IMG/VR virus record: IMGVR_UViG_3300010396_000009
Span: 1-64,000 of that record
Direction: 5' to 3' (one strand)
DNA from: a virus
Length of the DNA: 64,000 nucleotides
In this document: in pieces, positions 15,799 to 62,876 of the stretch
How the letters are laid out: each line of letters opens with the position of its first letter
Numbering within the stretch: the stretch's first letter is position 1
Translations under genes and position numbers: made by a program
The notes under the pieces: model-generated
The model's input: the letters and a program-made list of their open reading frames with translations, nothing else
Databases searched by the model: none
Told to the model about the DNA's origin: nothing

Positions 15799-15981
15799 CT
15801 ACTCCCTTTCTTCAATCTCGAGGAACATTCCAGTATCCGCGTCGAGCTTCTCGAACTTCCCTTTCTTGGTGACCTGAATGATCTCGATGTCGCCGTTAGA
15901 GGCCTCCTCGAGAACTTCGTCACTCAGCGCGCTCACCACTGACAGCTTTGGCTCGTCTTCGCTCACGATTAACCACTGCAT
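15799..15981 (-). CDS. Unknown small acidic protein
   Basis: 60 residues, strongly acidic (SALSDEVLEEASNGDIEI and LEIEERE). AGGAG lies 7 nt before the ATG and the leader has a GTCCTTT form of the repeat. Its first 62 nt overlap the 3' end of the synthase gene in another frame, an unusually long overlap. No family recognised. Confidence 0.6.
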   Translation of the reverse strand: MQWLIVSEDEPKLSVVSALSDEVLEEASNGDIEIIQVTKKGKFEKLDADTGMFLEIEERE

Positions 15982-16912: not shown

Positions 16913-16918
16913 GCTCCT

Positions 16919-16947
16919 ATTATAACAGGGATCCCTTCTTAGGTACA
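16919..16947 (-). promoter_or_regulatory. sigma70-type promoter, TGTACC-N17-TATAAT
   Basis: Minus strand: TGTACC at 16947-16942, 17 nt, TATAAT at 16924-16919, inside the end of the methyltransferase gene. The ATG at 16912 lies only 7 nt after the TATAAT, so the expected start site coincides with the start codon. Confidence 0.65.
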
Positions 16948-28857: not shown

Positions 28858-29067
28858 CTATTCTTTCACAAAGACAGGAAACTGAATCTGATCAGCTGAG
28901 CCAGGCTGCAAAAATGTCAGCTCGCGTGTGCACTCTGCGCACCACATTTTTAGAGTCACCGTAAGCTGACCTGCGTCTGATCTGTGCACAGACACCTCAG
29001 ACCTAAACTGCTTGTGCTCGCAATCTAGTCTTTTCCATGGAGTGGTAGTAGTCTGAATATAGCTCAT
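28858..29067 (-). CDS. Unknown small protein, glycan cassette
   Basis: 69 residues, beta-rich, with CEH and CAEC pairs that could bind zinc. Between two glycosyltransferase genes and overlapping the upstream one by 4 nt. No family recognised. Confidence 0.6.
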   Translation of the reverse strand: MSYIQTTTTPWKRLDCEHKQFRSEVSVHRSDAGQLTVTLKMWCAECTRELTFLQPGSADQIQFPVFVKE

Positions 29068-30860
29068 GATGATTTGACAATCTCAGGCCACCGTGAGCCA
29101 AGCGGATGCGGACACTTCTCAAGAGAATAAAGAGACTTGTCCTCAACTGGGCAACCGCATTTCGAGCATGCACCGTCGTTTAGTAATGGGCACAGCATGC
29201 ATGCGTCTAAGCGAGCTTTCTGCAGTTCTTCTGAGACCTTTTCACCGCCCTTAGTAGCATGTCGCAGCATGGCCTTGCCGTAGTTCCAGGCCTTAACGAC
29301 CGGGGACGGAAGAGGCAACTTGTCCTCCTCGCGCTTGGACAGCACTGACATGCCATAGTTATTTTCATAGCTTCGCCACAGAGTCCACTCAGGGTGCTCC
29401 TTAACGAAGATGCGAATAGCGTGCAGGAGCCCAGGACCGCCGTCCTCACCACGCTCGCCAAACCCATTGACGGCCGTATCATGCATCACAATCCACTTAT
29501 TCACCTTCGTGTGATGCAGATTAAGCTCCGCCAATAAGTGATCACGTGTATGTCGTGTATCAATGAACAGCATATCGGTCTGCTGAATGTCCGTCATCTC
29601 AGAATGACCGATGCGGAAGCGATAGTCTGTCTTGCCGCGTAGCTTCTCAAAGCCGTCTGCCTCGCGATACCGCTCCTCTGCGTAGCTTACCAGAATCTTC
29701 GGCTGCCCGGCTAGCAGGGCCGTGGTCGATACGTTATGTCGTTTTCCCCACTCTGTCACATGTTCGCACTGCGATGAGAGCTCCCTCAACAGCCAGCAGT
29801 GCTCGTTAATATCATGCGGCGTCCTCGACACGTGATCGTATAGCTCCTCAAGCGTCTGTGCTTCTTGCGCTCCGCAAGATGGGCAGGCCGACACTGGAAT
29901 ATTCTGATGCTCCAGCAGCTGCTTCGTCGTAGGTGTGGGCTCTTTGGTGAGCAGAGACCAGATATGCTCAGTGATTGACGTGAGCTTACGCAGGTCAACG
30001 CCGGGCTTCAGATACTCATGATCACCTGCATGAGTCCATGATGAGCCATCCTCGTTGATACCCTTCACGAAATGCTTATACGCGCGGTCAAGGGGCAAGC
30101 CGAGCTCTCGATGTCCGATAACATAGTTGCGAGCCTTCTGCAGTGTATTGCTCGGATACGGAGTGGCCTCGCCGCGGAACCGGTGGAGCCACCTGAGCTG
30201 TGGTATGCAGATTACGCGATGACCGGCTTGGCGATACTTCGTGTGAATGTACCACTCCTCACCGCCGAACCCATCCATGGCTCGATTAAACCCTAGCCAC
30301 GCGTCCTTCCGACAAGAGAATAGGCCGAGACCCTGCGCCGGGATCTCAAAAGGCTCACCCGAGCATCTCTGGTCATTGATATCACCGCGATGATCCATCG
30401 CCCAGATGCCCCACATGCCGTGTCGCCAAACGTCATCGAAGTGTGTGCCGAGTATGTTGCGACGATCGTCATAGATGATCGGCCCGCATATGAGATCGCG
30501 AGTATCCCAATGCTCATCATAATACTTCAGCAGGGACTCCAGGGCACCTCGCTGCAGAATAACGTGCGAATCAACGCACAGCACGTACTCGCCAGCAGCT
30601 CGCTTAAACACCTCGTCACGGGGCGCAGCCGTACCGATTATCTCAGAGAATGGCACATACGCGGCCTTGCCAAAGTCACCCTTGACCTGTGTCTGGATAA
30701 AGTTTCGAACGCGCTGCCCCTGTGAGCTGTTCGGATTGTTATCGACCACCATGAGTTCGCAGTCGCTGAGCAACTCTTGGTGCATTTCTCGCATGCACTG
30801 CACTGTGAAATACACGCCGTCGAAGTCGTCAAAAACGGCCATGCCGATGGTCAAGCGCAT
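29064..30860 (-). CDS. Fusion of family 2 glycosyltransferase and class I methyltransferase-like domain
   Basis: 598 residues. Residues 1-270: a GT2 domain with TIGMAVFDDFDGVYF, VVDNNPNS and LCVDSHVIL as the DxD-like site, and an FGGEEWYIHTKYR acceptor motif. Residues about 330-530: CPSCGAQ zinc pair, then MLFIDTRHTRDHLLAELNLHH and VMHDTAVNG, like cephalosporin-hydroxylase-type methyltransferases. The C-terminus is Cys-rich (CMLCPLLNDGACSKCGCP). Such a three-part protein is uncommon. It lies next to the Thr-rich protein and may act on it. Confidence 0.75.
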   Translation of the reverse strand: MRLTIGMAVFDDFDGVYFTVQCMREMHQELLSDCELMVVDNNPNSSQGQRVRNFIQTQVKGDFGKAAYVPFSEIIGTAAPRDEVFKRAAGEYVLCVDSHVILQRGALESLLKYYDEHWDTRDLICGPIIYDDRRNILGTHFDDVWRHGMWGIWAMDHRGDINDQRCSGEPFEIPAQGLGLFSCRKDAWLGFNRAMDGFGGEEWYIHTKYRQAGHRVICIPQLRWLHRFRGEATPYPSNTLQKARNYVIGHRELGLPLDRAYKHFVKGINEDGSSWTHAGDHEYLKPGVDLRKLTSITEHIWSLLTKEPTPTTKQLLEHQNIPVSACPSCGAQEAQTLEELYDHVSRTPHDINEHCWLLRELSSQCEHVTEWGKRHNVSTTALLAGQPKILVSYAEERYREADGFEKLRGKTDYRFRIGHSEMTDIQQTDMLFIDTRHTRDHLLAELNLHHTKVNKWIVMHDTAVNGFGERGEDGGPGLLHAIRIFVKEHPEWTLWRSYENNYGMSVLSKREEDKLPLPSPVVKAWNYGKAMLRHATKGGEKVSEELQKARLDACMLCPLLNDGACSKCGCPVEDKSLYSLEKCPHPLGSRWPEIVKSS

Positions 30861-30888: not shown

Positions 30889-32778
30889 TTATACGCACTG
30901 ACAGCTTCCGTATGACAGCTGCCCAGCATACGAGCCGTCACCGATGGGCGGCTCGGGTGTGCAGCTGTGCGGACCTACGCATGTGCCAGTGCAATCATTA
31001 GTATTCATCTGCCAGAAGTATACACCGAACTCAAAATCACTCTGAACCCAAATCCATGTAGACGTTCCAAAGCACGAACCGCTCGGCGTCGTAGTCGTAG
31101 TCGATGTGGTTGATGTGGTCGATGTTGTCGTTGTAGTTGTAGTAGACGTGCTCGTCGTCGTTGTGGTTGTGGTGCTCGTCGTAGTAGTGCCGCATGGAGT
31201 GCTGCGGCATTCCCCAGATACGTCACCCAAGCCTTGCGGACCAACATTACACGGGCAGTCACTTGTGCAAGTCGTCGACGACAAGGTCCACGTTGTGCCA
31301 TTCCATCGCCATAAACACTTTGAATTACTGCAACCTGGTGTAGTCGTCGTAGTAGTTGTACCACACAAAGACGGCGTAGTAGTGGTCTGTATTGGCGATA
31401 CGCAGTCTGTTGTTGTATGCGAACCGCACGCTACGCACGGAACGCTCGGAGCATAGCACACGCACCCAGTGTTAATTGATCCGCCATCAGGAGTAAAATT
31501 ACAACCTGATAAGATAATCGGATTGCCCGTACCCGTCTGGACTATAGTAGAAACGTTAGTCGCGGGATTCCACACCGACCCATCGCACCACCAGACACAA
31601 TATGCCCCGCAGCAGCCACTTGGGCATCCGCGATTTGCCGGCGTGGTAGTAGTCTGGCACGGAGTATGAACCGGATCGCATGATGGATTAGCCCCAGGAG
31701 TATCTGGCTGATTACACATGTAGCATCCCTGCTGCGCATTGCAGTCCAGGGCGCCGTGAGGCTGCCACGATACGCCATCCCACATCCAATTGCAACCAGA
31801 GCACCCAGTCCCACCTCCAGTCGTCGTACCGCACGTCGTCGTGGATGACGTCCCGCCACAGTATGGCTGAGGAGGCACTCCGGCAGCAGACGGTACGCAG
31901 TCAGTCTGAGCTGAGCTACATGTTCCATCACCGCAGAAATTAGGCTTTAGGCACTGACAACCGGGAGTAGTAGTCGTAGACGTAGTAGATGTTGTGGTGG
32001 TGGACGTTGTGGTGTTAAGGCACGGCACGCACCCACTTGGCGTAGTAGTGGTCGTAGTCGTGCCGCCGGTGGTGGTCGTAGTTGAAGTCGTCGACGTAGT
32101 GGTAGTTGTATTGCAGTTATTAGTCGTCAGTGTCCATACAAGGTTCACTGCGTCCCACGACCAGATGCACGTGCCAGCACACTTATAAGTATCATGTGGC
32201 GTAGTGGTACCATACACTGGTGGACCTGGCGTAGTAGTGCCGCCGCCCTGATTCGCCAGCACACCGATTCTACCAGAGTCTACTTCAGGTTGACACTCAG
32301 CATATAGCAGCTGATGCGGAACAGTACCCGGCACCATGTAGTCGCCGACTATTCCGAGGGTTTGCAAGAATGCGATAGTCCCCTTGGACCTCACGACAAC
32401 TGGCTCATAAGGCGTGATTAGCTTTATCCAGCCAAACTCACCTGGGCACAGCTGATATGCCTCATTGCCGCCATACTGCGAGGCATCTGCCGTCGCTAGC
32501 CTAACCTTAAAGTAAAAGTCTACGCCGCCTGGCTCAGCATCATAGATTTCTACGATGCCGTATGGGCACACGATGTCATCAGATTTGCACGGCCACCAGA
32601 GCTGCCGCTGCCAGGTAGTCTTTTTCTGTACTGCGCCGTGTTGATCTTGCAGCGTGTTTGGACCCAGCGGATTGCCATGATCTGACGCAGCATCGACCAT
32701 CGCATTGAACGTACCGACGTCGATAGACTTATCACGCAGAGCAGCTCGTATCAAGTTAGCTCGTGATCTCGTGATCAT
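30889..32778 (-). CDS. Mucin-like Thr-rich protein with repeated Cys/Trp modules
   Basis: 629 residues. Residues 1-175 are a globular domain with no known family. From 176 on, Thr/Ser-only tracts (about 223-247, 256-271 and near the C-terminal end) alternate with modules of pattern Cys-x-Trp-x-Trp ... Trp ... Cys (CIWSWDAVNLVW, CNWMWDGVSW, CVWWCDGSVW, CLWRWNGTTW, STWIWVQSDF). Thr codons vary, so the tracts are selected as protein. Sits between tail genes and the glycosyltransferase cassette; probably an O-glycosylated, disulfide- or metal-stabilised tail protein. Similar in kind to mucin-like linkers, but no homologue recognised. Confidence 0.7.
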   Translation of the reverse strand: MITRSRANLIRAALRDKSIDVGTFNAMVDAASDHGNPLGPNTLQDQHGAVQKKTTWQRQLWWPCKSDDIVCPYGIVEIYDAEPGGVDFYFKVRLATADASQYGGNEAYQLCPGEFGWIKLITPYEPVVVRSKGTIAFLQTLGIVGDYMVPGTVPHQLLYAECQPEVDSGRIGVLANQGGGTTTPGPPVYGTTTPHDTYKCAGTCIWSWDAVNLVWTLTTNNCNTTTTTSTTSTTTTTGGTTTTTTTPSGCVPCLNTTTSTTTTSTTSTTTTPGCQCLKPNFCGDGTCSSAQTDCVPSAAGVPPQPYCGGTSSTTTCGTTTGGGTGCSGCNWMWDGVSWQPHGALDCNAQQGCYMCNQPDTPGANPSCDPVHTPCQTTTTPANRGCPSGCCGAYCVWWCDGSVWNPATNVSTIVQTGTGNPIILSGCNFTPDGGSINTGCVCYAPSVPCVACGSHTTTDCVSPIQTTTTPSLCGTTTTTTTPGCSNSKCLWRWNGTTWTLSSTTCTSDCPCNVGPQGLGDVSGECRSTPCGTTTTSTTTTTTTSTSTTTTTTTSTTSTTSTTTTTPSGSCFGTSTWIWVQSDFEFGVYFWQMNTNDCTGTCVGPHSCTPEPPIGDGSYAGQLSYGSCQCV

Positions 32779-40245: not shown

Positions 40246-40935
40246 TTACGAATTTCGCCGATGACGGGCAGCGTGCTGTGCGGCTCGTCGCTCGGCGTCC
40301 TTGACGATGGACGGCGTGCCGTTGTCACCATGGTTAGGTGATTGCTGATGATTGGTTCGCTCTCCCGTCGAGGTGATCGGACTGTTCAGCGAGAGGGCTG
40401 CGACGATGTCGTCGAAGTCATCTCCTGTCTCGTTGGGATACATGGTCTCATGCGAGAGGGCGAAGGAAACGGCCTTCGGCGTCGCGTACTTTGCCTTGAG
40501 CTGCTTCATCACCGGGACCGAGATCTTCTTACTGGTCACGAGACCCAGGAGCTCTTGTTCGCGAGCCTTGACCAGGCGATTCTGAAGGGACTTCGGAACG
40601 TCGAAGCTCATGGCCGGGGGAGGCTCGTAATTGCGATCATGGGCTCTGTTGCGTCGCCCACCACCGAACTCATCACCCTCACCCTCGTCCTCGAAGACTT
40701 CAGGAGGAACCCCGGCGCCCATTCCCTCGGCCTCGGAGAGCTCCCCTTCCTCTTCCTCTTCCTCGAATTCAGGAAGCTCTTCTTCCTCACCCTCGCCGCC
40801 TTCGCCTTCACCTTCACCTGGAGGAGCGGAGTTGAAAGCTTGCTCGATGCACTCGCTGATCGCCTCGTCATCGGCCCCTTCGGGGCACTCAACTCCGAGC
40901 TTCTGAGCGAGATTAACAAGGGCCGGACTTGCCAT
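40246..40935 (-). CDS. Nested scaffold protein (internal start, lambda Nu3/Mu Z-like)
   Basis: About 229 residues in the same frame as the protease, starting MASPALVNLAQKLG. AAGGA stands 7 nt before this ATG. Lambda Nu3 in C and Mu Z in I are the known parallels. It contains the acidic patch and the helical C-terminus, without the protease domain. Confidence 0.7.
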   Translation of the reverse strand: MASPALVNLAQKLGVECPEGADDEAISECIEQAFNSAPPGEGEGEGGEGEEEELPEFEEEEEEGELSEAEGMGAGVPPEVFEDEGEGDEFGGGRRNRAHDRNYEPPPAMSFDVPKSLQNRLVKAREQELLGLVTSKKISVPVMKQLKAKYATPKAVSFALSHETMYPNETGDDFDDIVAALSLNSPITSTGERTNHQQSPNHGDNGTPSIVKDAERRAAQHAARHRRNS

Positions 40936-41541
40936 ATTATTTCCTTCTTCGTGATCGCAAGCGATGAATGAAAGCTCGATGCCTGATTGATTTGCTAACT
41001 GAGCCGCTACGTCAGAGAATTTACTCAGAGCTGGAACAACGGGATAATCCGTAATCGCCACGTGGCGAATTGGTCTAGCATAGCGCTTGCCGACGCCAGA
41101 CGTAAATTCATGCGGCATGAATAGGGAAACGTCGCTCTCCCTAAACTGCTCCTTGTATTCTGGCCTTCGCCATTTTATGTAGGCGAATAGCGCCGGCTGA
41201 CCTCGCCGATTTGGGTGCTCAGACGGCTCAACGGCCATCTTGACCACGGTGCCTCGACGGGCCTCGGGGTCAGTAGTGTGACCGATAGGAACTGGTACTG
41301 GGATGCCGTCATGGGCCATCTGATTGAACGTGCGCACCCAGTGCTCGAGCTGGAACTCATCGACGGGAAGCTCGAATTGAGTCTCCCCGTTATCATCTAC
41401 CTTGACAAAGGTTCCAGGGTACGCGAGCTCTTTTCTCGAGATAAGCTCAGGCTCATCGAGCCCGCAGGACGCGTCCACTGATAAGCAGACTGTCTTGGGA
41501 AGCTTTAGAAACCACTCAGTTCTGAGTCTATTTTTGGCCAT
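40246..41541 (-). CDS. Capsid maturation protease with scaffold domain (Mu protein I-like)
   Basis: 431 residues. Residues 50-185 match the Mu gpI peptidase: VDEFQLEHWVRTFNQM, VPIGHTTDPEARRGTVVK with the likely catalytic His, and SDVSLFMPHEFTSGVG around the presumed Ser. A very acidic region (EEEEELPEFEEEEEE, about 250-280) and a basic, helical C-terminus form the scaffold. Cleaves scaffold and itself. An internal start at 40935 gives the scaffold alone. Confidence 0.82.
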   Translation of the reverse strand: MAKNRLRTEWFLKLPKTVCLSVDASCGLDEPELISRKELAYPGTFVKVDDNGETQFELPVDEFQLEHWVRTFNQMAHDGIPVPVPIGHTTDPEARRGTVVKMAVEPSEHPNRRGQPALFAYIKWRRPEYKEQFRESDVSLFMPHEFTSGVGKRYARPIRHVAITDYPVVPALSKFSDVAAQLANQSGIELSFIACDHEEGNNMASPALVNLAQKLGVECPEGADDEAISECIEQAFNSAPPGEGEGEGGEGEEEELPEFEEEEEEGELSEAEGMGAGVPPEVFEDEGEGDEFGGGRRNRAHDRNYEPPPAMSFDVPKSLQNRLVKAREQELLGLVTSKKISVPVMKQLKAKYATPKAVSFALSHETMYPNETGDDFDDIVAALSLNSPITSTGERTNHQQSPNHGDNGTPSIVKDAERRAAQHAARHRRNS

Positions 41542-41547
41542 GCTATG

Positions 41548-42237
41548 CTAAATATACCCTGTCACTAGTGCGCCCGCATTGAAACGAAATCCAGGGTCGA
41601 CGTCCGGAGTTCCGATGAACGGCCGAGTCTTAGCCAATCGAGAGCCAAATCTGATCGGCCTACAGCGACAGCGACAATTCCACCCATTCGGGGTGAAATA
41701 TGAGCGCCAGAACTTATGACGCTTGGGATACCTGACGCCGTGAAGAGCTCTGTGACTCTTCCTGGCGTCTATCTTGGCGACGTACTCAAAGCCCCAAATA
41801 CTGGGATCACTGTATCCCTGAATCCAGGTAGCCGCCGCATCAGCGATAGATGACTGAGTCCTGGCTACAGTCTGTATCAGAGACTTATCCTCGCCGTAGA
41901 CACCAATTCTAGTGAGGGCCCTGCGAATATACTGTAATCGCTTCGCCTCGGAGAGCTGTGAGGCTACTCGAATCGCCTTCAATAGATCAGCTCGCACGCG
42001 AGACATGTTCTCGTCTGTGATACTTCGCGCTATCGAGCGAAACATCTCAGTGGCAGCTATCCTTTGGCGCTTGGGAAGCGATCTGAAGACCTTGATGCCA
42101 TGATCCTGCGCCATCGCGAATACTTGGTGCTCGACTTCTGAGCAGTCGAGAGCATAGCCCACCGGATCAGAGGCCGCCTCCAGAGACCATGCGAAGTACC
42201 TGGAGGCGGCGATCGAAGATAGCTGATCTGGCGTCAT
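41548..42237 (-). CDS. Minor head protein (Mu gpF/SPP1 gp7-like)
   Basis: 229 residues. C-terminal half has TVARTQSSIADAAATW, FEYVAKIDARKSHRALHGVR, FWRSYFTPNGWNCRCRCRP, the signature of phage_Mu_F head morphogenesis proteins. Shorter than many because of a small N-terminal region. It may help connect portal and capsid. Confidence 0.82.
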   Translation of the reverse strand: MTPDQLSSIAASRYFAWSLEAASDPVGYALDCSEVEHQVFAMAQDHGIKVFRSLPKRQRIAATEMFRSIARSITDENMSRVRADLLKAIRVASQLSEAKRLQYIRRALTRIGVYGEDKSLIQTVARTQSSIADAAATWIQGYSDPSIWGFEYVAKIDARKSHRALHGVRYPKRHKFWRSYFTPNGWNCRCRCRPIRFGSRLAKTRPFIGTPDVDPGFRFNAGALVTGYI

Positions 42238-48545: not shown

Positions 48546-49328
48546 TCAGGCAGCTCTAACGGCCTGCAGATCGGCATTAAGAGCTGTCATATCGATGGCG
48601 TTCGGTGCAGTGTTGTTCGTGAACCAACTTGGGGCGATAATCCCATAGGCCTCGTCGATATAGGCCTCCGCCGCTGCCGGAGTCATGTCAATCAGTGCGC
48701 CCCATGTCACGACCTTGAACTTGAGGGCTCCGCCCTGATCTATGTAACCCACGACGATGACAGCGTGACCACCCCATGAGCCCGGTTGATTCTGATGATT
48801 GGACAGCGGGCCATAGACGTCCCACACATTCTTGCCCTGCCATGCAGTCGGAAGCTGAATTCCGATGTAGGAGAACGCAAAGCAATAAATAGTCTGCTGA
48901 AACGTCGGCAAATCCAATTGACTGTTGCCGGCCTCGATAGAAGCGTAGGCTCCGATCTTATAGCCAGACAATCCAATTTTGGCCATGTAATTCATGACGT
49001 CAAGCTCATTACAGCCGTTGTCATTGCGACCAGTGCGCGGATCATAGCCGCTGATCGCCGAATACATGCCAATCACGTCAGCGTCAGACGGTGTAACGAT
49101 CGCGCCGTTATTGCCCGTCCAGACCTGAATACCGTGACCGAACCCAGCACATGTGCAGTCGCCAATACTATCATTGGCCATCGCTCCCCAGCTGATTCCC
49201 GGAGGCGTCCAGTCGACGATCGACGGCGCTGGCGGCAACCCTGGTGTCAAGTACCTTGCGAGCTTAAGCGTTCGCTCATCGATGCGCGGTGCGTGTTTCC
49301 CGAGCTTAACTTTTGTGTGATCAATCAC
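48546..49328 (-). CDS. Papain-like cysteine protease fold protein
   Basis: 260 residues. [12 protein letters not shown] holds the likely nucleophile Cys in a DCT context, and [13 protein letters not shown] the likely His, as in papain-like proteases. No signal peptide. Substrate unknown: a virion-processing or host-directed protease, or an endolysin-like peptidase. Close to lysis-type membrane genes. Confidence 0.7.
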
Positions 49329-50209
49329 GGCGAGTACTTTCCAATGAGGGCGCGCATCTTATCGACTGTCTTTGGCATCTGCATATCGGCCGGCGTGATG
49401 TTTAGCCAATCTCCGGTCTGCAAGTTCTTTACGACCACAGTGGGGTATCCGCCGTTCGCGGCGATCTGCTTTGCGTAGAGCGTCTTAATCTGTCCGCCGT
49501 CTGATATGCTCTCAGAGTTGTACCACACCCACTTATGACCCTTGCCAAAGATCGAGTCCTTGGGAACCAGCGGACCTGAGCCAACAGCGAAGAATGGATC
49601 ACGGAGAATAGCACCAACAGCCTGCTGCTGGGGCAAATTATTGGTATCAGTGATAATGACAATGAGAAGCTTAGCAGCCGTGACCGGCGGATTAGGTCCT
49701 GGCCCTGGTCCTGGCCCTGGTCCTGGTCCTGGTTCATCACCAGGTGGCCCCTGCGGACCAGGGTCACCCTTAGGCCCCTGCGGTCCAGGTGGACCCTGCG
49801 GTCCAGGTGGACCTTGCGGTCCTGGTTTTCGCGCTGAGTCACTCTCTGTGACGGTAACAGTGCACTCGTTAGAGATTACGTCGCCGCCGTACGCCCTGAC
49901 GATGTACTCTCCCGGCACCATCGACCAGGCTAAGGTCTTAAGCGGCGCAGGGTTAAACTCCTCATCAAGGAGATTCAGATCATCAGAGTCATCTGACTTG
50001 ACCCAGTGAACCTTTGATAGGTTCGTAGTCGCCTCTAACTTGAGAATTTTCCCGGCAGCAATAGTGAGAGTCGATGGCACTACTATCGCAGGTCCGCCAT
50101 TGACGGGTTCGCCTCTGAGGCGACCCTTCGCCTTGATAGAAACCGGAGAATAAGCTCCGGCACAGCCGGTAATTACGAATAGCAGAAGTAGAGAAAGGAC
50201 GCGACTCAT
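49325..50209 (-). CDS. Putative lipoprotein with collagen-like repeat
   Basis: 294 residues. [18 protein letters not shown] is a lipoprotein signal with lipobox Cys16 (ITGC). Then an Ig-like beta region, a collagen Gly-X-Y tract ([19 protein letters not shown], about 130-155), a Gly-Pro tract, and a C-terminal alpha/beta domain of unknown type (about 175-294). A lipoprotein with collagen triplets is rare in phage; it might act in the infected cell envelope (superinfection exclusion) or be a virion fibre. Confidence 0.68.
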
Positions 50210-51266: not shown

Positions 51267-52664
51267 TTATATCGAGTTAATACTAGCATGCCCGTTTCTC
51301 TCAGCTCCGTTTCTCTTGGCCATGAGATATCGTTGCTTGCGACTGAGGCTAGCTCGCATGACGGCCTGACCAGGCTGTTTCTGGATGCCCTTCACCTCAG
51401 GCGCGCCGAGCTGCTCTCGAATAGCAGCCCAGTCTAGGTGAGCCTGCTCTTGAGCCTGCCCAGCCTCTGTTCCCCAGTGCTTCTCATAGAGTCCCTTGAT
51501 GAACGCTCGCTTCTCATCGACGAGCGGCGAAGCCGTGACCTTGACCTTGTCCACGTATCGAGGACCGTAATTCAGCTCAAGAAGAACATTGACCACCTGG
51601 CTATTCAGCAGGGCCATGATCTCCCTGTGAGTCATCTCCAGGTTATCGACCACGAAGTCAGCGTGTGCTTCGGCCTCTGCCTTGGTGCCGAATTGACCCT
51701 CCTGAATAGCTCGCTCAGGAAAGCCAAAGCCGCGGGCCTTTAGCACATCATGATACTTAAGGCGCTCGACGAAAGCGCCCTGCTGAGTCTGCGGTGATTG
51801 GAGCTCAACTCGCCATGCCGCGTTAGCTGGGTTGAAGTTATTCATATCATCCACCTGACCAAGGATAGAGCTCGGCACGGCGACCATGCCAGATGACTGC
51901 AGCGACTTGAGAATATTCGCCGCGATCACAGCATTATCTGTCTCACCAGTGACCGCTCCGGTGACGGGATCTTTCTGTATAGAGGTCCCCATTGGGTAAT
52001 AGACGATCCAGTGTGACCCTGCGATCTTGACGTCAAATCTCCTGGCCCCGTCATCGCACTCGAGCCAAGAGTCATAGGGTCTCTCGCACCTGCGCAAGAG
52101 CGGCTCGCTGTACCAGTTCGTGCCCTCAGCATCACGGTATAAGCAGGCGAAGTCGCCCCTGTACAGATAGACCGGGTTTGGGTTCAACACATTGTGAATT
52201 GCGCTGTTTCGCACGCCGACCATATTGCCATGATAGTCGACGAGAATAGTCGTAAGATCCTGAAGCAGTCCCTTAAATTTCTTCACGTAGAACATACCAG
52301 TGTCTTCGTGCTGCTCCTTCACTACTTCATACGGCTGCCAGCCGAAGTCCAGAAATCCTCGCAGAGCGTCGCGCAGAAACTGAATTCGAAAAGGGACAGT
52401 CGATTGCTTGATGCAGAGCTCGGCATCCTTGAACTCCTCATGCTCGCACTCGACTGTCCACTCGGAGCCAAGCAAGGCAGCCTGATATATGTCGCGAAGC
52501 AGTCCCAGCGTTGGATCGCGGCGCATGAGACGCACTTTGCGAAACCACTGAGAGGTGACTACCGGGTTGAGGGCCAGCACACCAGGTGGGACAAACCCAT
52601 CGGGACCAGCGCCGACGAGAATCTGGGCTACGGTCCTGGCTTGCTTTGGTTCTTTGTCAGCCAC
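51267..52664 (-). CDS. Portal protein (Mu gp29-like, DUF935)
   Basis: 465 residues. Typical portal-family pattern with DPTLGLLRDIYQAALLGSEW, LDFGWQPYEVV, and C-terminal FPERAIQEGQFGTKAEAEAHADF, as in Mu-like portals. The portal ring is the DNA entry gate and head-tail connector. Placed immediately after the terminase and the 52664-54034 protein. Confidence 0.85.
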   Translation of the reverse strand: MADKEPKQARTVAQILVGAGPDGFVPPGVLALNPVVTSQWFRKVRLMRRDPTLGLLRDIYQAALLGSEWTVECEHEEFKDAELCIKQSTVPFRIQFLRDALRGFLDFGWQPYEVVKEQHEDTGMFYVKKFKGLLQDLTTILVDYHGNMVGVRNSAIHNVLNPNPVYLYRGDFACLYRDAEGTNWYSEPLLRRCERPYDSWLECDDGARRFDVKIAGSHWIVYYPMGTSIQKDPVTGAVTGETDNAVIAANILKSLQSSGMVAVPSSILGQVDDMNNFNPANAAWRVELQSPQTQQGAFVERLKYHDVLKARGFGFPERAIQEGQFGTKAEAEAHADFVVDNLEMTHREIMALLNSQVVNVLLELNYGPRYVDKVKVTASPLVDEKRAFIKGLYEKHWGTEAGQAQEQAHLDWAAIREQLGAPEVKGIQKQPGQAVMRASLSRKQRYLMAKRNGAERNGHASINSI

Positions 52665-54034
52665 TAGTCACCCTTGATCTCATGACCCTGGTTAAACGTC
52701 GCCGTTCCCACCTCGTGGGCGCCCCACTCCTGAGCTGCCCAGTGCTTGATCAGCTGCATCGTGTGCTCATCGCTGCACCGCACCGCTATGACGACCTTCG
52801 GCACGTCGAGGATCTTTCGAACGGCGACCTGAAGATCAACTCCGCCACGAGCAAATCTCTTCACGTCGCGAGAGAATTTCATACCGCGCTTCTCTGGGAG
52901 CGTGAACACGGCATTAAGGCCCATCGCCTCTCTTTGATGAGGTTTCACACGAGCGGTAGGCTCTAAAGGAGACATGTCACCTCTTGAGTTGAGCGCCCTG
53001 GCCTTGCTGCGCTTGGCGACGCCGTCGATAGAGTGCAGAACGGAGACATTATCGGTCTCGACGTTCACGAGCACCCACTGTCGCCTATCCTCTGGGTCTG
53101 GATTTGGATAGCGCTGAAGCTGCACCACCAGTTTGATGTCAGGGAAACCGTACTTCAGGTCCATTATCGAGTCGCGCATCTCGGCCGCATTGCCGGCGGG
53201 GACCACGTAGTGGGCCCTCGGAAGAACCTGGCGCTGGTGCTTGGCTGCACGAGCCTTGGCGAACCTATCCTTGGGCTCACCAGCTAGTGCTACTGAGCCC
53301 GGCAAGCTTTTTTTTCGCGCTGCTTTTGAGTCTTGAGAACCAAGAACGACGTTATCAACTAGGCTCAGCGAGAAGCTCGCGAATCGCCCTTGAGCGTCCC
53401 TCTCGTACTGCCGCTGGGAGACGTGGGTCTTCCCTTGGCGGTCGAGCGCCTCGTATCTCGTGCGAACCCCTGCATGATGATGCCAAAGCCTCTTGTGCTT
53501 TGCCGCGATTGCCTTGGTCCCCGGAAAAGTGCTCTTCTTGAACTTCTCGTAGCCAGAGCGGTGAACGTCCTCGTGCGTCTTGTGATGCTTAATGATATCC
53601 TTCACCGAGATCATGTTGTTCTCGGAGATCGGTGGAAGGTCGTTGTCTCGCCGCACCTGATTGCCGTATCCTCTGCTAAGATCGCTCTTTGTCCTCTTGA
53701 AGAGCCTGCCGCTCACCAGGTCCTTGGTGTACTGGATAGGGTGCATGACGGCCTGCTTCGTGTTCTTGATCGTCGCGGATACGAGCGGAGACACATCGCA
53801 CGCTACACCCTCCATGGAGAGCGCGTAGAGCTGCTTCCTGGTCAGTGGGCGACCCTGCTCAGCGAGCGAAAGGTAATACGAGGCGGCTCGGCTGATCGGC
53901 TTTCGTCGGCGACCTTTTCGCTTTACCTTGTAGGGCAATTTTTTCCCCTTCGGAGTCTTTTTCTCGAACTCGTGGGCGATCTCGGGATGATGAATGTGCA
54001 TGTAGGCTCGCTGCGCCTGAGATACAAAAGGCAT
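52664..54034 (-). CDS. Terminase-adjacent head protein
   Basis: About 456 residues from the ATG at 54034, which overlaps the terminase stop in TAATG. It begins MPFVSQAQRAYMHIHHPEIA, a motif known from small phage proteins of unknown function. Basic, Arg/Lys-rich; His-rich HHAGVR in the middle. Role unknown, maybe internal head or head-maturation protein. Confidence 0.65.
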   Translation of the reverse strand: MPFVSQAQRAYMHIHHPEIAHEFEKKTPKGKKLPYKVKRKGRRRKPISRAASYYLSLAEQGRPLTRKQLYALSMEGVACDVSPLVSATIKNTKQAVMHPIQYTKDLVSGRLFKRTKSDLSRGYGNQVRRDNDLPPISENNMISVKDIIKHHKTHEDVHRSGYEKFKKSTFPGTKAIAAKHKRLWHHHAGVRTRYEALDRQGKTHVSQRQYERDAQGRFASFSLSLVDNVVLGSQDSKAARKKSLPGSVALAGEPKDRFAKARAAKHQRQVLPRAHYVVPAGNAAEMRDSIMDLKYGFPDIKLVVQLQRYPNPDPEDRRQWVLVNVETDNVSVLHSIDGVAKRSKARALNSRGDMSPLEPTARVKPHQREAMGLNAVFTLPEKRGMKFSRDVKRFARGGVDLQVAVRKILDVPKVVIAVRCSDEHTMQLIKHWAAQEWGAHEVGTATFNQGHEIKGD

Positions 54035-55344
54035 TATGCCGCTCCCACCAAAACACTCGGAACCACGTCGCTCGTAGGAACAACTGGCCACACTCGATGA
54101 ATAATATACCCAAGGGCGTCAGTGATGTGACCAATGTCATCATGATCATCGACGTCGCGACTGCCGGGCTCATATGCCCTGGTCACCAGATCATGAAGCA
54201 GCCATTTGCACCGGGGATCAACGAAGACTCGTCGCTCTCCCAGGGCGTTGCAGAAGGACGCATTGCATGCCGAGAACCGCTCATGAATCGCGGGGTTCTT
54301 CGCAGGATAGAAGATCTTCTTTCTAAGGAAACGCTGATCATTCTGGATATGTGCATAGTCGCTCTGAACAGCGCTAGTCTTCCTGGCCTTGGATGACGCA
54401 TCGCCGAAGAAGATCCAGCCTGATTGGTGCACACTTGGCCTATTATAGCGCTTATCTAATTCATTTAACGCAGCCGGCGTGTTAGTGTTGCGAATCCAGA
54501 TCTCGTCGATGACATTGAGCTTCGGCCTAGACGTCGTGTGCTGCTGGCAGATGACCCACGCCATAGGGTCTACGTTGAAGTCAGATCCGATGATCAGTGG
54601 CTTACTTGGGTCATACTTTGCTGATTCTATGTTAAGCTTCTCATCGAACGCGTAGAACACCAGCCCAGATGTTCCCTGCCAGATGGCCCCGAACTGCTCG
54701 TCAAAATCCTTCTGATCAAGACTTCTGGCGGCGTCAGCTATTTCCTCCTCGCTCAGGATGTCAGCGCTTGGCCAGGTATAGCTCTCGTATCTCGGGCCAA
54801 GCTTTCCAGAACCGTAGTCCTCCCAGCACTTCTTGAACTCGGAGGCACCTGGTCCAAACCGCTTGGGAACACCGATACGCCAACACCAGCCAGTTTTATG
54901 AGATAACGTCGGGCGAACCGAGCGATCGAACGAGCCGGGCCATTGATCGCACGATTCATCGATGACCCCGCCGTCCCACTGAACGCCCTCGATTCTAGCC
55001 GGCTCATTCATGCCGACGAGGAAGAGCTTAGATCCGAAGCGAGTCTTGATCGTCAGATCACTCTCGCGTATGTCATCAGGCGAGGCTATCCACTCCTTTG
55101 GAATCAGGGCCTTGATCTTCTCCCAGGCGACTAATTTAGCCTGCGCCCTAGTGGGATACGCCAGGAAATAGATCGGATCAGGCCAGGGCTTCTTAACCGG
55201 GAGAAACCTTACCAGTCGTCGCCTAGATAGCTCCGTCTTGCCAGAGCCTCGGCCGCAAGCCAGCGCGACGAAGCGCGCCTTGGTGCGCCACACCCTAGTC
55301 TGAGCCGGGTGATAGCGAAGCGGAAACCAAGCCGGGGTGAGCAT
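54034..55344 (-). CDS. Terminase large subunit
   Basis: 436 residues. ATPase: Walker A GRGSGKTEL (near residue 32), Walker B VIDESC with catalytic Glu. Nuclease: IIGSDFNVDPMAW, GDASSKAR and DDIGHITDALGY offer the metal-binding Asp residues of the RNase-H-like domain. Motor for DNA packaging. Overlaps its upstream neighbour by one base. Confidence 0.93.
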   Translation of the reverse strand: MLTPAWFPLRYHPAQTRVWRTKARFVALACGRGSGKTELSRRRLVRFLPVKKPWPDPIYFLAYPTRAQAKLVAWEKIKALIPKEWIASPDDIRESDLTIKTRFGSKLFLVGMNEPARIEGVQWDGGVIDESCDQWPGSFDRSVRPTLSHKTGWCWRIGVPKRFGPGASEFKKCWEDYGSGKLGPRYESYTWPSADILSEEEIADAARSLDQKDFDEQFGAIWQGTSGLVFYAFDEKLNIESAKYDPSKPLIIGSDFNVDPMAWVICQQHTTSRPKLNVIDEIWIRNTNTPAALNELDKRYNRPSVHQSGWIFFGDASSKARKTSAVQSDYAHIQNDQRFLRKKIFYPAKNPAIHERFSACNASFCNALGERRVFVDPRCKWLLHDLVTRAYEPGSRDVDDHDDIGHITDALGYIIHRVWPVVPTSDVVPSVLVGAA

Positions 55345-55805
55345 TACTTCGCCTTAAGTTGCTCTCTTAAGGCTTTGTACCGCTTCATCCGTTCAGGTCG
55401 CACAGGGTGCAGTGACTGCAGATCCTGGATCGCCAAGGCGACCTCGCGACCAACGCCTCGCCCGGGATCAAGCATCAGGTCATGGCTCATCTTGATGAGG
55501 TCCTTGACCACGTGAACTCCCTCGGTCGGAGCGAACATCTCACCGAAGAAAGAGTCAAAGATGAGCTGCTGAAACTGCAGGACCTTTTCCCTGCGCCCGG
55601 TCACGGCGATCTTGCAGTCGGCGTAAAGCTTCGCATCCAGGCCGTGCTCCTTGGCTAGTTTGAGCGCCGGCTCGATGTTGTCCCGCTGATTCACGGAGAT
55701 GATCTTCGTGAACTGATCATCGGCGCTGTCCATGGCCAGGGAGAAGTCCCGGCGCACCTGACCACGGCGAAGCATTCGATTAGCTGCTTTGAGCATGGGA
55801 TTCAT
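55344..55805 (-). CDS. Unknown terminase-adjacent protein
   Basis: 153 residues, helical and basic-rich (KMSHDLMLDPGRGVGREV). No family recognised. The 3' end of the gene overlaps the start of terminase by 1 nt and its 5' end overlaps the large gene by 26 nt. Confidence 0.62.
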   Translation of the reverse strand: MNPMLKAANRMLRRGQVRRDFSLAMDSADDQFTKIISVNQRDNIEPALKLAKEHGLDAKLYADCKIAVTGRREKVLQFQQLIFDSFFGEMFAPTEGVHVVKDLIKMSHDLMLDPGRGVGREVALAIQDLQSLHPVRPERMKRYKALREQLKAK

Positions 55806-58800
55806 TCTGAAGCACCTTTACGTTAATGGCGTTATTCTGCTCAGCGATTTTCTTTACCAATTCGGGATCGCTGGTAAGCACCAGGACCCGGTCGTTGTCC
55901 TTCTTCTGACCCTTGATTCCGTTCTCCCTGAGCTCCGTCAAGAATTTACCCAGAAGGTATGCGTTGGCCGCGAACGCTACGACCATGTAGGTCAGATGGG
56001 CGGCTCCCTTGACTGCTGCAGGGAAAGCTAGCTCATGCGAAGCAGCTGCCTCCTTGACCAATTTTTTAACTCTCGCGGTCCTGGCTCGTCGCTTGGCGAT
56101 CTTCTCAATTTTCTCTGGTGAGCCCTGCGCCACGACCTCGCCGTTAGGCTTTACTTTTGCCAAGATTCCGCTGGAGATCAGGTCAGCCGCGACCGTAGTC
56201 GCCACGTACGGCCCCACATCCTTGATAAGCCACCAGCCGACACCCTTCAGGAACGGCAGGGCTGCGATGGCGGGGAAGGCCATTTCTTTGCCCTTCTTTT
56301 TCTTCATCTCCTTGATTTTGCCATGGAGCGGCTTCTCGAGGTTAGTCACCGGGGGTTTCTTCTTGGGTTTCTGGACAGGGACTCCGCCGTTTGACACCAC
56401 AGCTGCTCGCTGCTGAGCCTTCGGCATTACCTTTGAGGCGGGCTTAGGCGCAGGTTTAGGCGCAGCGATAGGGGCCGGCGCAGCTCGCCTCACAGGCCGC
56501 TTCTTTGTAACTCCGCTCTTAAGAATCTTGCCTCGAAAAGCCGCGACGACGGCGTCTAATAAGCGCATCAGGGCGGCTCTCACCACCACGTGCACCCTGC
56601 CGTAGCCATCGGCGAACGAGTCAAAGATCCCGGCCTTGGCGAGCCATCGCATGGCCGCGGTCGCCCCGACGATACCGCCAAAGTCAATGATCAGCTCATG
56701 AAACACGTCGCCAATCGGTTTCTCGTGGAAGTTAGGATCAGTGCGCCGCGGGATCGGACCGGTTTCTTCATGTGGCGTGAACGCGCTGGGTTGCACCCCT
56801 GGACCAGCGCCGGGCGCCTGGTGCTTAGATCCAAATGTTCCAGTGGCCGTCGGATGCCTGGTGATAATTCCGCCGGCGGCAAATTCATTGACGGCAGGCT
56901 CGATGTCAGAGCCCTTGACACCCAGCACGACGATCTTCTTACCCTTCATGTACAGGTTCTGGAGCGGCTTGAAGTGATACTTGTTCACCAGCTGCTGGTA
57001 CGCCGCCTTGGCCGAGGCGACGCTCTTGCAGTCAAACTCCCAATTCATCGGGGACTCTTCGGCCATGAATGAGGCGGCCTTGACCTGGCCGCTGTGCTCG
57101 TCAATGATCTCCTTGACCTGATTCTCCTTGCTCGGGTCAGTGGTCTGGGCGAAGATCTTGTTGCCGATCACCTTCGCCTGGACACCCAGCTTCTTGATCA
57201 GCTGATACGCCCCGACTGCCAGAGCCCCGGTGGCGAACGTGGCGGTGATCGCCAAGAGCGCCTCACCCTTGGTCCTGGGGATGAAGCCCTTCACACCCTG
57301 CCGGGATGCCTCCTTGACAGCGCCCGGCAGGGCGCGGGCTATTCTCCCGACCTTGCCGGGCATAGAGCCTACTGTTTCTTTTGCATGCTTGGCTCCCTTG
57401 CCAAGCTTTTGCAGCTTGACCCTGGTCTCGTGCGGCAGCATGTCATGCACCATACTAGAGGGCAGGAACTCGGTGCCCGGAAGCACCATTCGCACCCCGG
57501 CCTCGAATTTTCTGTCCATCTCCTTAAAGATTCGCCCCATGATCGCGTCCGTTTTCTCTGTGGCCTTGCACAGGATGCTCTTTTCGCCGTTGCGACGAGC
57601 GGCGAGTCCCTTCGATCTGAGATAGGCGAGGCCAGCGGCGACCGCGAGCGAATTGGCGAAGACAAACTCGACCACTTCTGCCGGACCAAGACCCATCGCA
57701 TATGACATCGCCACGTCCACCCTGGCCCCGCATCGCTGAGCGTAGCGACGCACAGCCTCCTGTCCTCGGTCGCCGTAGGCCCGAATCTTGATCTTTCGCT
57801 TCTGCATGCCGCGACCGAGCGAGGAGAGGATCTCGCAGCCGAAGCCGCGCAATTTTTGAGCGAGCCACCCAACGTACTTCGGACTCACGGACGAGAGCAC
57901 GAATTCGTAAGCCCGACCCATGTCCATCTGGAACGACGCCGCGACCTGAGATGAATTAGTCGGCTCCATCTTGCCGCCATACTTTTTGGTGATCTCCTTC
58001 ACCTCGGTCTTCTTGTCGCCGCGAAGCTTCTTCACCAAGACATAGGCGCCGTACGCGGCAGCCGAGATACCAGCGGCTGTCAGGGCAACAAGGGCTGCAG
58101 ACGCCGCAGCATTGGCACCGAACTTTAGAAGCATGGAGCCGATCGCCATATCAGCGGCGTCTTGGCCGGACTTAAATGCCTTTGCTCTTGTGTTCTCGTG
58201 AGCGAACTTCATCACACCGACCTGGCCGAAGTCGGGCGGGATCGGCGAGCCCTTGAACTCCTGCACGCACTTGTTGATAACTCGGCGCTCTCCAGTAGCG
58301 GTGAGCTTATGTGAGTGAGGAAACGGTCGCTTCACCTTGACACCGTTCTTGCGGAGCCACAGAGACGCCTCGTCTGCCAGGTCCTCGCCCTCAAAGTAGA
58401 GCTGCATTGCCTCTACGCCGCTGTTCCGATCCTTGGCGCCGGGCTCTGTGGGTTCACTTGAGTTTGGCCTGTACGCACTCTGCTGCTGGGCTGGCATCTG
58501 CATAGGAGGAATCACCACTCCGTTTCCGTTCACCCCTGAGGGATAATTGCGTCGCATCATCTGCTTCTCATCATAAAGCGCCATCATTGCGTCAACCATG
58601 CTCATCCCCCTCATCCCGCCGTAGTTAAATGGTCGGCCGACATCGCGCATCTCATGGATCTTCTTGCTCGGCCGAAAATGCACATAGAAAGTCTCGGGCT
58701 TGAAGACGTCGTCCTTGGTCCTGGGATTCTTCTTCCACGCAGATTTTCTTCTGCGCATCTCAAAGATGCCGAAGTTCCGGAGCTCAACTCGCTGACCGTT

Positions 58801-59979
58801 TAATAGCGCCAGCGCGATCTTATCAAGGACAGCAGAGACAACTGGCCTTGTGCGCGCCTGTGCAAAGCCGAGCTCTTCAGAGATAGCAAGGTACAAAGCG
58901 CGCTTAGTCAAGGTCGAGCCAGCGACGGAAACGTCGAAGTCCATGCTAATCGGCGTAAGCGATGCAGCGTACCTCAAGCCAGGTGGTTCAACGACCTTAT
59001 AGTGAATAATGCCCATCTTATGAAGCTCTTGCATCACCTTGTCATGAATGAGAAGATGCACCACGGAGGGACTAGCATGCGGATCTTTTTTCCACATCTC
59101 AGTCGCTATTGGCTTCAGATGTTTCTTGTACAGCTTTGTTATCAGCTTAGCGATTTTCTCTGAATCTTGAGGATAGTTAGGTCCAGGTTTGGCCAGGTGA
59201 GAGACACCCTTATGATTAACTGCCTCGATCGACCTAACTCCGGGCCAGCCGACGAAAACTTGAATATCCTGGGTGCTGAATGTGCCGCCGGCTCTCTTAG
59301 AGTTACTGGGGTGATTATGAATTATCGCGTACTTATTCTTCTTGTCTATGGCGCCAGGAACACTTAAGTGTACGCGTCCCTTGCTGCCGTCGAACCTATG
59401 AATCACGTCTCCCTCATGATTCACTATGACCGAGTGTTCCTTTTCGCTTTTCTTGCCCTTTCTGAGCACGCTTTGCCTAGCTTTGTTTGCACCCTCAGTA
59501 AAGTGATTCTTGAATCCACTAATAGAGTGCTCAAATGCGAACGCCGGCCACTGTCCAGTCATGTTCCCGGTCATGTCTCTTCGCCTGTCGGGAAACCTCA
59601 TATTTCTCTTATAGGCTCTCTTGCGAGCCTGGATCGCCGGGTCAGGGTTCTCGATGGGGCTTATGGCGCTCCCAGTGCAGCAGGGTTCGCCAGTGTTCTG
59701 CACAGTCGAGTCTATAACATGCGTCACCTTCCCCTTATACGCCTTAACAGCCTGGCGAAGAAATGAGATAAAGGTCTCATGCGAGTGCATGTATCGCGGG
59801 GCACCTTCAGAACGATCCGGCATACGAATGTGAAGCTCGAGCTCGCGCTCAGAGACCCTGTCCATTTTCAGGGGAGCCGTACCAGCGATCTTAGCCTGCA
59901 TCCAGTCGATGAACTGCTTAAGAGCGCCCGGTGACCTGAATATCATGGTCAGGTGAATCGGCAGCTCGTGAGTCTTCAT
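55780..59979 (-). CDS. Large multidomain virion or ejected protein with JAMM-like and HU-like domains
   Basis: 1399 residues. N-terminal region, then a JAMM/MPN-like segment (about 181-262) with IIHNHPSNSKRAGGTFSTQDI, giving HxHP and S/D ligands. An HU/IHF-type domain at about 352-445: LTKRALYLAISEELGF, RVELRNFGIFEMRRRKSAW, NPRTKDDVF, FRPSKKIHEM. A further long part alternates hydrophobic membrane-like helices (about 622-650, 767-785, 905-928) with small alpha/beta units that look duplicated, and a Pro/Ala/Lys-rich linker. It resembles polyvalent phage proteins that are ejected with DNA. Functions of the rest are unknown. Confidence 0.75.
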   Translation of the reverse strand: MKTHELPIHLTMIFRSPGALKQFIDWMQAKIAGTAPLKMDRVSERELELHIRMPDRSEGAPRYMHSHETFISFLRQAVKAYKGKVTHVIDSTVQNTGEPCCTGSAISPIENPDPAIQARKRAYKRNMRFPDRRRDMTGNMTGQWPAFAFEHSISGFKNHFTEGANKARQSVLRKGKKSEKEHSVIVNHEGDVIHRFDGSKGRVHLSVPGAIDKKNKYAIIHNHPSNSKRAGGTFSTQDIQVFVGWPGVRSIEAVNHKGVSHLAKPGPNYPQDSEKIAKLITKLYKKHLKPIATEMWKKDPHASPSVVHLLIHDKVMQELHKMGIIHYKVVEPPGLRYAASLTPISMDFDVSVAGSTLTKRALYLAISEELGFAQARTRPVVSAVLDKIALALLNGQRVELRNFGIFEMRRRKSAWKKNPRTKDDVFKPETFYVHFRPSKKIHEMRDVGRPFNYGGMRGMSMVDAMMALYDEKQMMRRNYPSGVNGNGVVIPPMQMPAQQQSAYRPNSSEPTEPGAKDRNSGVEAMQLYFEGEDLADEASLWLRKNGVKVKRPFPHSHKLTATGERRVINKCVQEFKGSPIPPDFGQVGVMKFAHENTRAKAFKSGQDAADMAIGSMLLKFGANAAASAALVALTAAGISAAAYGAYVLVKKLRGDKKTEVKEITKKYGGKMEPTNSSQVAASFQMDMGRAYEFVLSSVSPKYVGWLAQKLRGFGCEILSSLGRGMQKRKIKIRAYGDRGQEAVRRYAQRCGARVDVAMSYAMGLGPAEVVEFVFANSLAVAAGLAYLRSKGLAARRNGEKSILCKATEKTDAIMGRIFKEMDRKFEAGVRMVLPGTEFLPSSMVHDMLPHETRVKLQKLGKGAKHAKETVGSMPGKVGRIARALPGAVKEASRQGVKGFIPRTKGEALLAITATFATGALAVGAYQLIKKLGVQAKVIGNKIFAQTTDPSKENQVKEIIDEHSGQVKAASFMAEESPMNWEFDCKSVASAKAAYQQLVNKYHFKPLQNLYMKGKKIVVLGVKGSDIEPAVNEFAAGGIITRHPTATGTFGSKHQAPGAGPGVQPSAFTPHEETGPIPRRTDPNFHEKPIGDVFHELIIDFGGIVGATAAMRWLAKAGIFDSFADGYGRVHVVVRAALMRLLDAVVAAFRGKILKSGVTKKRPVRRAAPAPIAAPKPAPKPASKVMPKAQQRAAVVSNGGVPVQKPKKKPPVTNLEKPLHGKIKEMKKKKGKEMAFPAIAALPFLKGVGWWLIKDVGPYVATTVAADLISSGILAKVKPNGEVVAQGSPEKIEKIAKRRARTARVKKLVKEAAASHELAFPAAVKGAAHLTYMVVAFAANAYLLGKFLTELRENGIKGQKKDNDRVLVLTSDPELVKKIAEQNNAINVKVLQNESHAQSS

Positions 59980-61922: not shown

Positions 61923-62876
61923 TTAAAGTGTTACTCCGGTTACTCGACGAACGACGTGGCTGTAGGACATCTTATGATCACAGCTATTACAGTTCGGCAA
62001 ATCGCGCCTCTTGTCCTGCAGATGGGCGCGGTAGCGAAACATGATCTCTGAGTTCCATACCTGATCAATAGTTTGATGATTCAAATCACCGATGAATACC
62101 GCATCGTCCTGTGTCTGGTCAATCGCGCAGCAGAGCGGCACTCGCCCATCATATTGGATGACGAGATGTCGATGCGGCCTGGCGCAGTGCGTCTGCGGGG
62201 CGCTTGCGGCGTGTCCCTTTGAGTGGAAGCTGTCGAACGAGTGAGCGTTCTCTGGGCGATCACTGCGCATGTCACTGATGCAAAGAAAGCGACCGCGAGA
62301 ATTATGACGGCGATACTTATGATCAGTACGACACCACAGATCATGAGCTCGCCCAGTGCTGTCAATGCTCTCATACAGTTCCTTCTGCTTGATCCCGGCA
62401 TCACCAAGATCATAGATGTTTAGGTTGATCACGTTGACGCCAGAGTCAAAGATATCGGTGATCCGGTCAACCATCGCTATTATTTGGTCTCGCGGGCCTC
62501 TGGTGATCGTGTCTCCGTTCGTCGAGACATAGATAGTGCAGTCAGGGCAAGCTCGGCGAAGACGCATAGCCCAGCTAGAATCATCAGACGAAAACAGTCG
62601 CTTGTCAAGAGTAGGCTCGTTTAGTAAAAACAATTGGATGCATCCATCGAACTGATGCTCGCGCAGCTGATCACAGATGCTCGTGAACAGCTCCTCGCTC
62701 ATCAATTTTTGATTGGGCCTGGGAATGTCACCACCGAATCCGCTGATGGGACAGAAACTGCAGCGTCGATTGCAGTAGGCGCTCGTCTCAATACTGAAGC
62801 GATTTGGCCAGGGATAGAACTCCCCTTTTGAGAAGTCCACCGGCGGCTCGTGCATCACGTCGAAAAATGAAGCCAT
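61923..62876 (-). CDS. Radical SAM/SPASM protein
   Basis: 317 residues. CNRRCSFC at about 34-41 gives the CxxxCxxC cluster site. The C-terminal half has CCAIDQTQD and LPNCNSCDHKM, typical SPASM cluster cysteines, which in known members bind extra Fe-S clusters and modify peptides, proteins or sugars. Second radical SAM in the window, far from the first. It stands among virion genes; substrate unknown. Confidence 0.85.
   Translation of the reverse strand: MASFFDVMHEPPVDFSKGEFYPWPNRFSIETSAYCNRRCSFCPISGFGGDIPRPNQKLMSEELFTSICDQLREHQFDGCIQLFLLNEPTLDKRLFSSDDSSWAMRLRRACPDCTIYVSTNGDTITRGPRDQIIAMVDRITDIFDSGVNVINLNIYDLGDAGIKQKELYESIDSTGRAHDLWCRTDHKYRRHNSRGRFLCISDMRSDRPENAHSFDSFHSKGHAASAPQTHCARPHRHLVIQYDGRVPLCCAIDQTQDDAVFIGDLNHQTIDQVWNSEIMFRYRAHLQDKRRDLPNCNSCDHKMSYSHVVRRVTGVTL

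Follow-up and report, generated by a model that had tools for sequence, protein, structure and literature searches.

Gene neighbourhood and layout of the giant protein

The DNA analysed here (the window) comprises bases 1-64000 of the 75,231-bp virus record IMGVR_UViG_3300010396_000009. It carries a siphovirus gene set, all on the minus strand, with the large terminase subunit (TerL), portal, MuF, a Mu-I-like protease, the major head protein and the tape measure. When a TerL profile was searched against 84,980 species genomes, just two relatives were found (48% and 46% identity), and since both are Planctomycetota assemblies the host of the phage is probably a planctomycete.

The head-gene block contains an open reading frame for a giant protein, here called P0001, whose coordinates and length in the original prediction were exact; it lies on the minus strand and begins with ATG (Table 1). 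Over its full length, GC at third codon positions exceeds GC at second positions. P0001 had been described as lying beside terminase, and TerL is indeed separated from it by one small ORF. TerL and portal are adjacent, as in the portal-terminase phages that encode polyvalent proteins. On the other side of P0001, the neighbouring genes include a sigma-like factor and ThyX.

Table 1. Positions of P0001, its parts and related head genes in the window
Feature	Residues	Nucleotides	Strand	Basis
Mu-I-like prohead protease and scaffold; own motifs ELSF189, AMSF310, AVSF357		40246..41541	-	Family alignment; motifs
MuF-like minor head protein, 229 aa, without JAMM domain		41548..42237	-	PF04233, E 5.7e-11
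475-aa protein adjoining TerL; AASY69, ALSM90, RDxxGRFASFSL		52664..54091	-	Same motif; homologue fused to protease in G016/L013
TerL		54034..55344	-	PHROG 2, E 5e-30
Small 153-aa ORF between P0001 and TerL; DFSLAMD near N-terminus		55344..55805	-	ORF and motif reading
P0001, giant protein	1-1399	55780..59979	-	ORF, ATG start, codon-position GC
N-terminal alpha/beta segment	1-92	59704..59979	-	Sequence reading only; no family match
JAMM/JAB-like domain; E181, H221, H223, S235, D238	about 159-335	58975..59505	-	17-sequence alignment, model, PDB and viral matches
Candidate protease site AASL, between JAMM and HU	338-341	58957..58968	-	Motif; aa 340-346 below pLDDT 50 in model
HU/IHF domain, NP at arm tip	357-443	58651..58911	-	PF00216, 61.7 bits; PDB IHF/HU matches
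Membrane repeat unit	617-674	57958..58131	-	Cross-protein HMM iE 3.5e-5; hydropathy
Candidate protease site AASF	680-683	57931..57942	-	Motif
Soluble alpha/beta unit (ferredoxin-like pattern)	688-756	57712..57918	-	Sequence reading only; no family match
Candidate protease site AMSY; aligns with QASMGL in L009	757-760	57700..57711	-	Motif
Membrane repeat unit	768-829	57493..57678	-	Cross-protein HMM iE 0.009; hydropathy
Membrane repeat unit	909-969	57073..57255	-	Cross-protein HMM iE 0.0015; hydropathy
Candidate protease site AASF	968-971	57067..57078	-	Motif
Soluble alpha/beta unit (ferredoxin-like pattern)	978-1042	56854..57048	-	Sequence reading only; no family match
Divergent membrane repeat unit	1093-1155	56515..56703	-	Aligns by hand and MAFFT; HMM iE 42, not significant
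Weaker candidate site EMAF(PA)	1232-1235	56275..56286	-	Motif
Membrane repeat unit	1252-1307	56059..56226	-	Cross-protein HMM iE 8.2e-10 (best); hydropathy peak just upstream
Weaker candidate site ELAF(PA)	1316-1319	56023..56034	-	Motif
Membrane repeat unit	1330-1390	55810..55992	-	Cross-protein HMM iE 0.0085; hydropathy

HU and JAMM domains

The original prediction attributed to P0001 a polyvalent-type architecture, and two unrelated domains, HU (PF00216) and JAMM, are found in its single chain. The HU/IHF domain, expected at about nt 58645-58926, scores far above the PF00216 cut-off of 22.4 bits (E 8e-17). It is the sole Pfam match of P0001, with no polyvalent-type domain family among the hits, and P0001 was the only PF00216 match reported in the 75,231-bp record. 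The PDB matches of this segment are IHF and HU. A KNPRT sequence carries the intercalating proline at the arm tip (position judged by eye), and the domain is predicted to be a DNA-bending module.

The JAMM-like HxHP segment, expected at about nt 59194-59439, holds the glutamate (E181, nt 59437-59439), HNHP (aa 221-224) and the S235xxD238 pair. This segment alone gave no match in Pfam and only weak matches by tblastn (E 0.08-6). Three of the latter were examined (a minor capsid protein of PF06152, another faecal phage protein and a DarB-like protein of Sinorhizobium phage PBC5), and all three keep E, HNHP and SxxD. Relatives were also sought in viral contigs with a DNA pattern for HNHP..FSxxDI; it returned 23 stretches, 16 of which align with P0001, and in the resulting 17-sequence alignment E, HNHP and FSxxDI are all invariant. 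The invariance of the glutamate is independent of the search, because this residue lies upstream of the pattern and was not part of it.

Single-sequence AlphaFold prediction of aa 112-470 was poor (pLDDT 45) and was set aside; the alignment-based model of the JAMM domain reached pLDDT 84 and pTM 0.81. Structure prediction by domain was the check proposed with the original claim, and the top PDB matches of this model are JAMM/MPN folds. The best VIA alignments were to PfJAMM1, EMC8/9, BubCD, Sst2/AMSH, CSN5, Rpn11, BRCC36 and RadC (Z 5.5-7.1), with PfJAMM1, EMC, Sst2, CSN5 and Rpn11 in the top rows at Z 6-7.1; deaminases, which share the wider fold, rank close behind. The modelled JAMM assignment is thus firm in kind and moderate in score, the latter because Foldseek alone gave no PDB match at E 0.001 or better. 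Among curated JAB families (RadC, Prok-JAB), P0001 itself had no match, and 5 of 17 relatives weakly match RadC (best E 0.011).

Elsewhere, this module occurs chiefly as the C-terminal part of MuF/minor capsid proteins. The best viral models matching it in BFVD include many siphovirus 'Minor capsid proteins' (E down to 1e-8), and most of the relatives found with the DNA pattern are MuF-type proteins in which CxxC..HPxCRC precedes JAMM. These MuF proteins with a C-terminal JAB, in viral contigs and in BFVD, have the same JAMM module with E, HNHP and FSxxDI, whereas in the window MuF is a separate gene (41548-42237) without JAMM and the JAMM domain resides in P0001, in which the Pfam search found no MuF domain (PF04233). 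As most of the relatives are cargo domains borne by MuF-type head proteins, this comparison supports carriage of P0001 in the head.

The original prediction also envisaged cleavage of ubiquitin-like or peptide bonds. According to published analyses, RadC-like and toxin JAB domains are devoid of the ubiquitin-tail groove, probably do not attack ubiquitin-like tails and are more likely nucleases (PMC5512222, PMC3482391). Because other roles are preferred for RadC-like JABs in the literature, a ubiquitin-type isopeptidase role was not adopted. The modelled metallo-hydrolase fold lies within the chain, and polyvalent proteins can hold embedded peptidases that release their parts (PMC5512222), so that JAMM itself, rather than the Mu-I-like protease, might cut P0001. 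This seems to us very improbable, because the genome already encodes a dedicated head protease; moreover, published opinion is against RadC-like JABs acting as tail peptidases (PMC5512222, PMC3482391).

Membrane repeats and the only homologue found

The complete records of close relatives by TerL were examined for P0001-like proteins, and none was found except in one contig, L009 (IMGVR_UViG_3300047160_012786), which the TerL scan had brought up. When viral contigs were scanned with patterns made from P0001 and from this homologue, nothing beyond L009 emerged, and profile A2, run on 392 planctomycete genomes without a positive control, gave no match. In L009, 838 residues are visible, followed by a TerL 61% identical to that of the window; the homologous membrane repeat units lie directly upstream of this TerL. 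The contig breaks off upstream, and the comparison covers the repeats only, any HU and JAMM parts of the homologue lying outside the visible stretch.

The predicted repetition of a hydrophobic helix followed by a small alpha/beta unit was borne out across the two proteins. An HMM for which six units of the L009 protein were the sole input, searched against twelve phage records, finds P0001 with a full E of 4.5e-23 and no other protein below E 0.5. It places units at aa 617-671, 770-809, 916-967, 1249-1304 and 1333-1383, with a very weak one at 1103-1152; phmmer pairs this divergent unit (aa 1093-1155) with aa 71-210 of the homologue. The reverse HMM search also succeeds. Each unit has a hydrophobic helix, LxxxG[IV]xA and then beta, alpha, beta, a pattern that we describe, from its sequence, as 'hydrophobic helix + beta-beta-alpha-beta'. 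Hydropathy peaks coincide with the helices, which would span the membrane.

An HU domain together with hydrophobic helices, and the presence of a sigma-like factor and ThyX among the genes on one side, would also suit a protein made in the infected cell and never packaged, which would use HU and the helices to tether phage DNA at the membrane while JAMM acted locally. We consider this improbable, given that P0001 adjoins TerL on its other side and that the JAMM relatives are MuF cargo.

Prohead protease and candidate cleavage sites

In the alignment of the Mu-I-like prohead protease family, H88, S139 and H160 are invariant; 7 of 14 members match PF10123 (Mu-like_Pro), and the window member does not. 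Family members carry AASL, ALSL, ASM or AMSF in the linker after the protease domain and at a site before the scaffold coil. Motifs of the type A-x-S-[F/Y/L] between the modules of P0001 resemble this linker site of the phage's own protease (Table 1), and the first of them, AASL338, falls in a low-confidence linker of the JAMM model.

Across 103 called genes, A[AMVL]S[FYLM] has 13 matches, 9 of which are in the protease, P0001 and the 475-aa protein, that is, in about 9.5% of the residues. P0001 contains four as compared to 0.44 expected (shuffle p 0.0025), in a motif class that was picked after inspection of the data; per-gene shuffles gave p < 0.0025 for the protease and p 0.01 for the 475-aa protein. 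With a motif variant derived from relatives, four matches were observed in P0001 against 0.73 expected (p 0.006), one of them inside an alpha/beta unit. The enrichment in P0001 is modest, with shuffle p from 0.0025 to 0.0075 across tests. A PWM trained on the linkers of relatives placed 2 of its top 25 matches in P0001 (about 1.4 expected, not significant), and a BLOSUM 8-mer test was not significant either (p 0.11). Two module junctions of P0001, at aa 444-617 and about 830-909, bear no motif. A scaffold-like targeting tag was also sought in P0001 and rejected, the best score being 6.3 bits as compared to a shuffled maximum of 15.7; such a peptide is not an established requirement for substrates of the protease. 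Because the PWM and BLOSUM tests were null, no scaffold-like tag was found and the choice of motif class followed inspection of the data, processing of P0001 is put forward as a serious hypothesis rather than a result.

These results bear on whether P0001 might instead be packaged and delivered whole, with the C-terminal helices threading the membrane, HU and JAMM as tethered effectors and A-x-S-F as ordinary linker. Polyvalent proteins of portal-terminase phages do bring unrelated domains together and are believed to be packaged (PMC5512222), and the blinder motif tests (PWM, BLOSUM) are not significant. Delivery of the intact protein accounts for everything but the motif pattern: the enrichment is common to P0001, the protease and the 475-aa protein, and a matching pattern occurs in another phage (see below). 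We regard it as unlikely, less so than the membrane-tethered nucleoid protein.

Motifs in head proteins of related phages

The closest relative of the protease is found in G010 (IMGVR_UViG_3300033067_002207). Directly after TerL, this phage has a 1102-aa ORF with five GASxA-like sites as compared to 0.13 expected, GASxA being the motif of G010's own protease/scaffold linker. Like P0001, the 1102-aa protein adjoins TerL, is multi-module and repeats the protease-linker motif of its own phage; the two have no detectable sequence similarity, and no HU and no HNHP motif was seen on reading it through.

Two other G010 proteins, at 28276-28815 and 8160-8498 (L094:8276-8815; L093:8160-8498), start with INPLIKDAMRRAG and KSPLIVDAERRLI. 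These N-terminal peptides match the C-terminal end of the protease/scaffold family (NPLxxDAERRA) with 21.6 and 16.3 bits (shuffled maximum 15.7), and may be a capsid-targeting tag.

In G016 (L013:13165-16008), prohead protease and scaffold form an in-frame fusion with a homologue of the 475-aa protein, and this fusion shows many ALS-type sites between modules. The motif RDxxG[RK]FA recurs in head proteins of this phage group with a candidate protease site after it (ASFSLSL, ASFSYAF, AGFGLS), in the window (52664-54091) and in L009 (4219-5049 and 2-2518); a related HPRDxxGxF is present in G009 and L121.

Other genes of the phage

A 130-aa SET-domain protein (PF00856, E 9e-14) is encoded on the minus strand of the same genome as the HU protein, outside the window (L088:12337-12729; record 68336-68728). 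SET proteins are unusual in phages, and HU-like proteins could, speculatively, be a substrate of this one. The thymidylate genes comprise a ThyX-like one (PF02511; L088:8822-9757, record 64821-65756), a ThyA-like thymidylate synthase (15920-16948) and a thymidylate kinase (15229-15795). Two Radical-SAM proteins were observed, one with SPASM and Radical_SAM (61923-62876) and one recognised by its cysteine motif only (27225-28226); together with glycosyltransferase/methyltransferase genes (28223-28855, 29064-30860) they lie close to tail genes. Furthermore, a protein with collagen-like GPQGPPG repeats is encoded at 49325-50209, and the product of 30889-32778 (629 aa) has long stretches of Thr/Ser and numerous Cys residues.

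Discussion

Capsid delivery of P0001 is supported by its context only, and P0001 is probably present in the virion. The original prediction treated the protein as one host-takeover device. Its polyvalent architecture, HU, JAMM and repeats hold, but the module-boundary motifs, which resemble the protease linker, suggest that it may be a polyprotein. Our tentative reading of the sequence, to which we give slightly less than an even chance, is that P0001 is a polyprotein loaded into the capsid, from which the prohead protease would make modules for ejection; that the Mu-I-like enzyme does the cutting seems to us almost, but not quite, as probable as the contrary.

The packaging, cleavage, ejection and targets that we infer would run as follows. 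P0001 would be late, capsid-internal cargo of a siphovirus of (probably) Planctomycetota, and synthesis as a single chain would bring equal amounts of every module into the prohead. During head maturation the Mu-I-like protease would cut the linkers bearing A-x-S-[F/Y/L]-type motifs, which would free the alpha/beta module, the JAMM metallo-hydrolase, the DNA-bending HU module and several membrane units of one helix each. The pieces would stay with the DNA and leave with it on infection; the membrane units might then insert in the inner membrane and aid passage or act as anchor, the HU piece would bind or bend DNA in the head or at entry, and the JAMM piece may hydrolyse a peptide or nucleic-acid target of the host (or packaged).

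The polyvalent proteins described from phages and from conjugative elements (Iyer et al., 2017, PMC5512222) resemble P0001 in having several unrelated domains per chain, in occurring in portal-terminase phages and in including JAB. With regard to the domains first described there as named Pfam families, HU was the only Pfam match of P0001, and its JAB was recognised by fold only. P0001 differs in adding HU (the term 'HU domain' is absent from that paper), repeated membrane units and possible prohead-protease processing. The internal proteins of T4 and the ejection proteins of SPN3US, processed by a prohead protease, are likewise head cargo with short linear protease motifs (PMC10052503). The SPN3US protease, however, mostly removes N-terminal propeptides at AXE (PMC10052503), whereas cuts in P0001 would fall between functional modules and at another motif, and for this reason module-separating cuts would be a new use of a prohead protease. 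In the literature searched, a limited search that is not proof of absence, no direct precedent for phage head polyproteins was found.

It is conceivable, although we hold this broader view with more doubt than the cutting of P0001 itself, that the lineage loads its heads with true polyproteins, in which unrelated effector and membrane modules are split at the phage's own prohead-protease sites and the motif co-evolves with the protease linker (A-x-S-F here, GASxA in G010), analogous to the polyproteins of RNA viruses. P0001 brings together, within a single chain, the MuF/JAB cargo known from many siphophages, a DNA-bending HU domain and membrane units, and does so in a phage lineage that probably infects Planctomycetota, a little-studied group. 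If true, the proposed processing would provide a concrete rule, a motif and its protease, by which a siphovirus may deliver many proteins in fixed ratio from its head.
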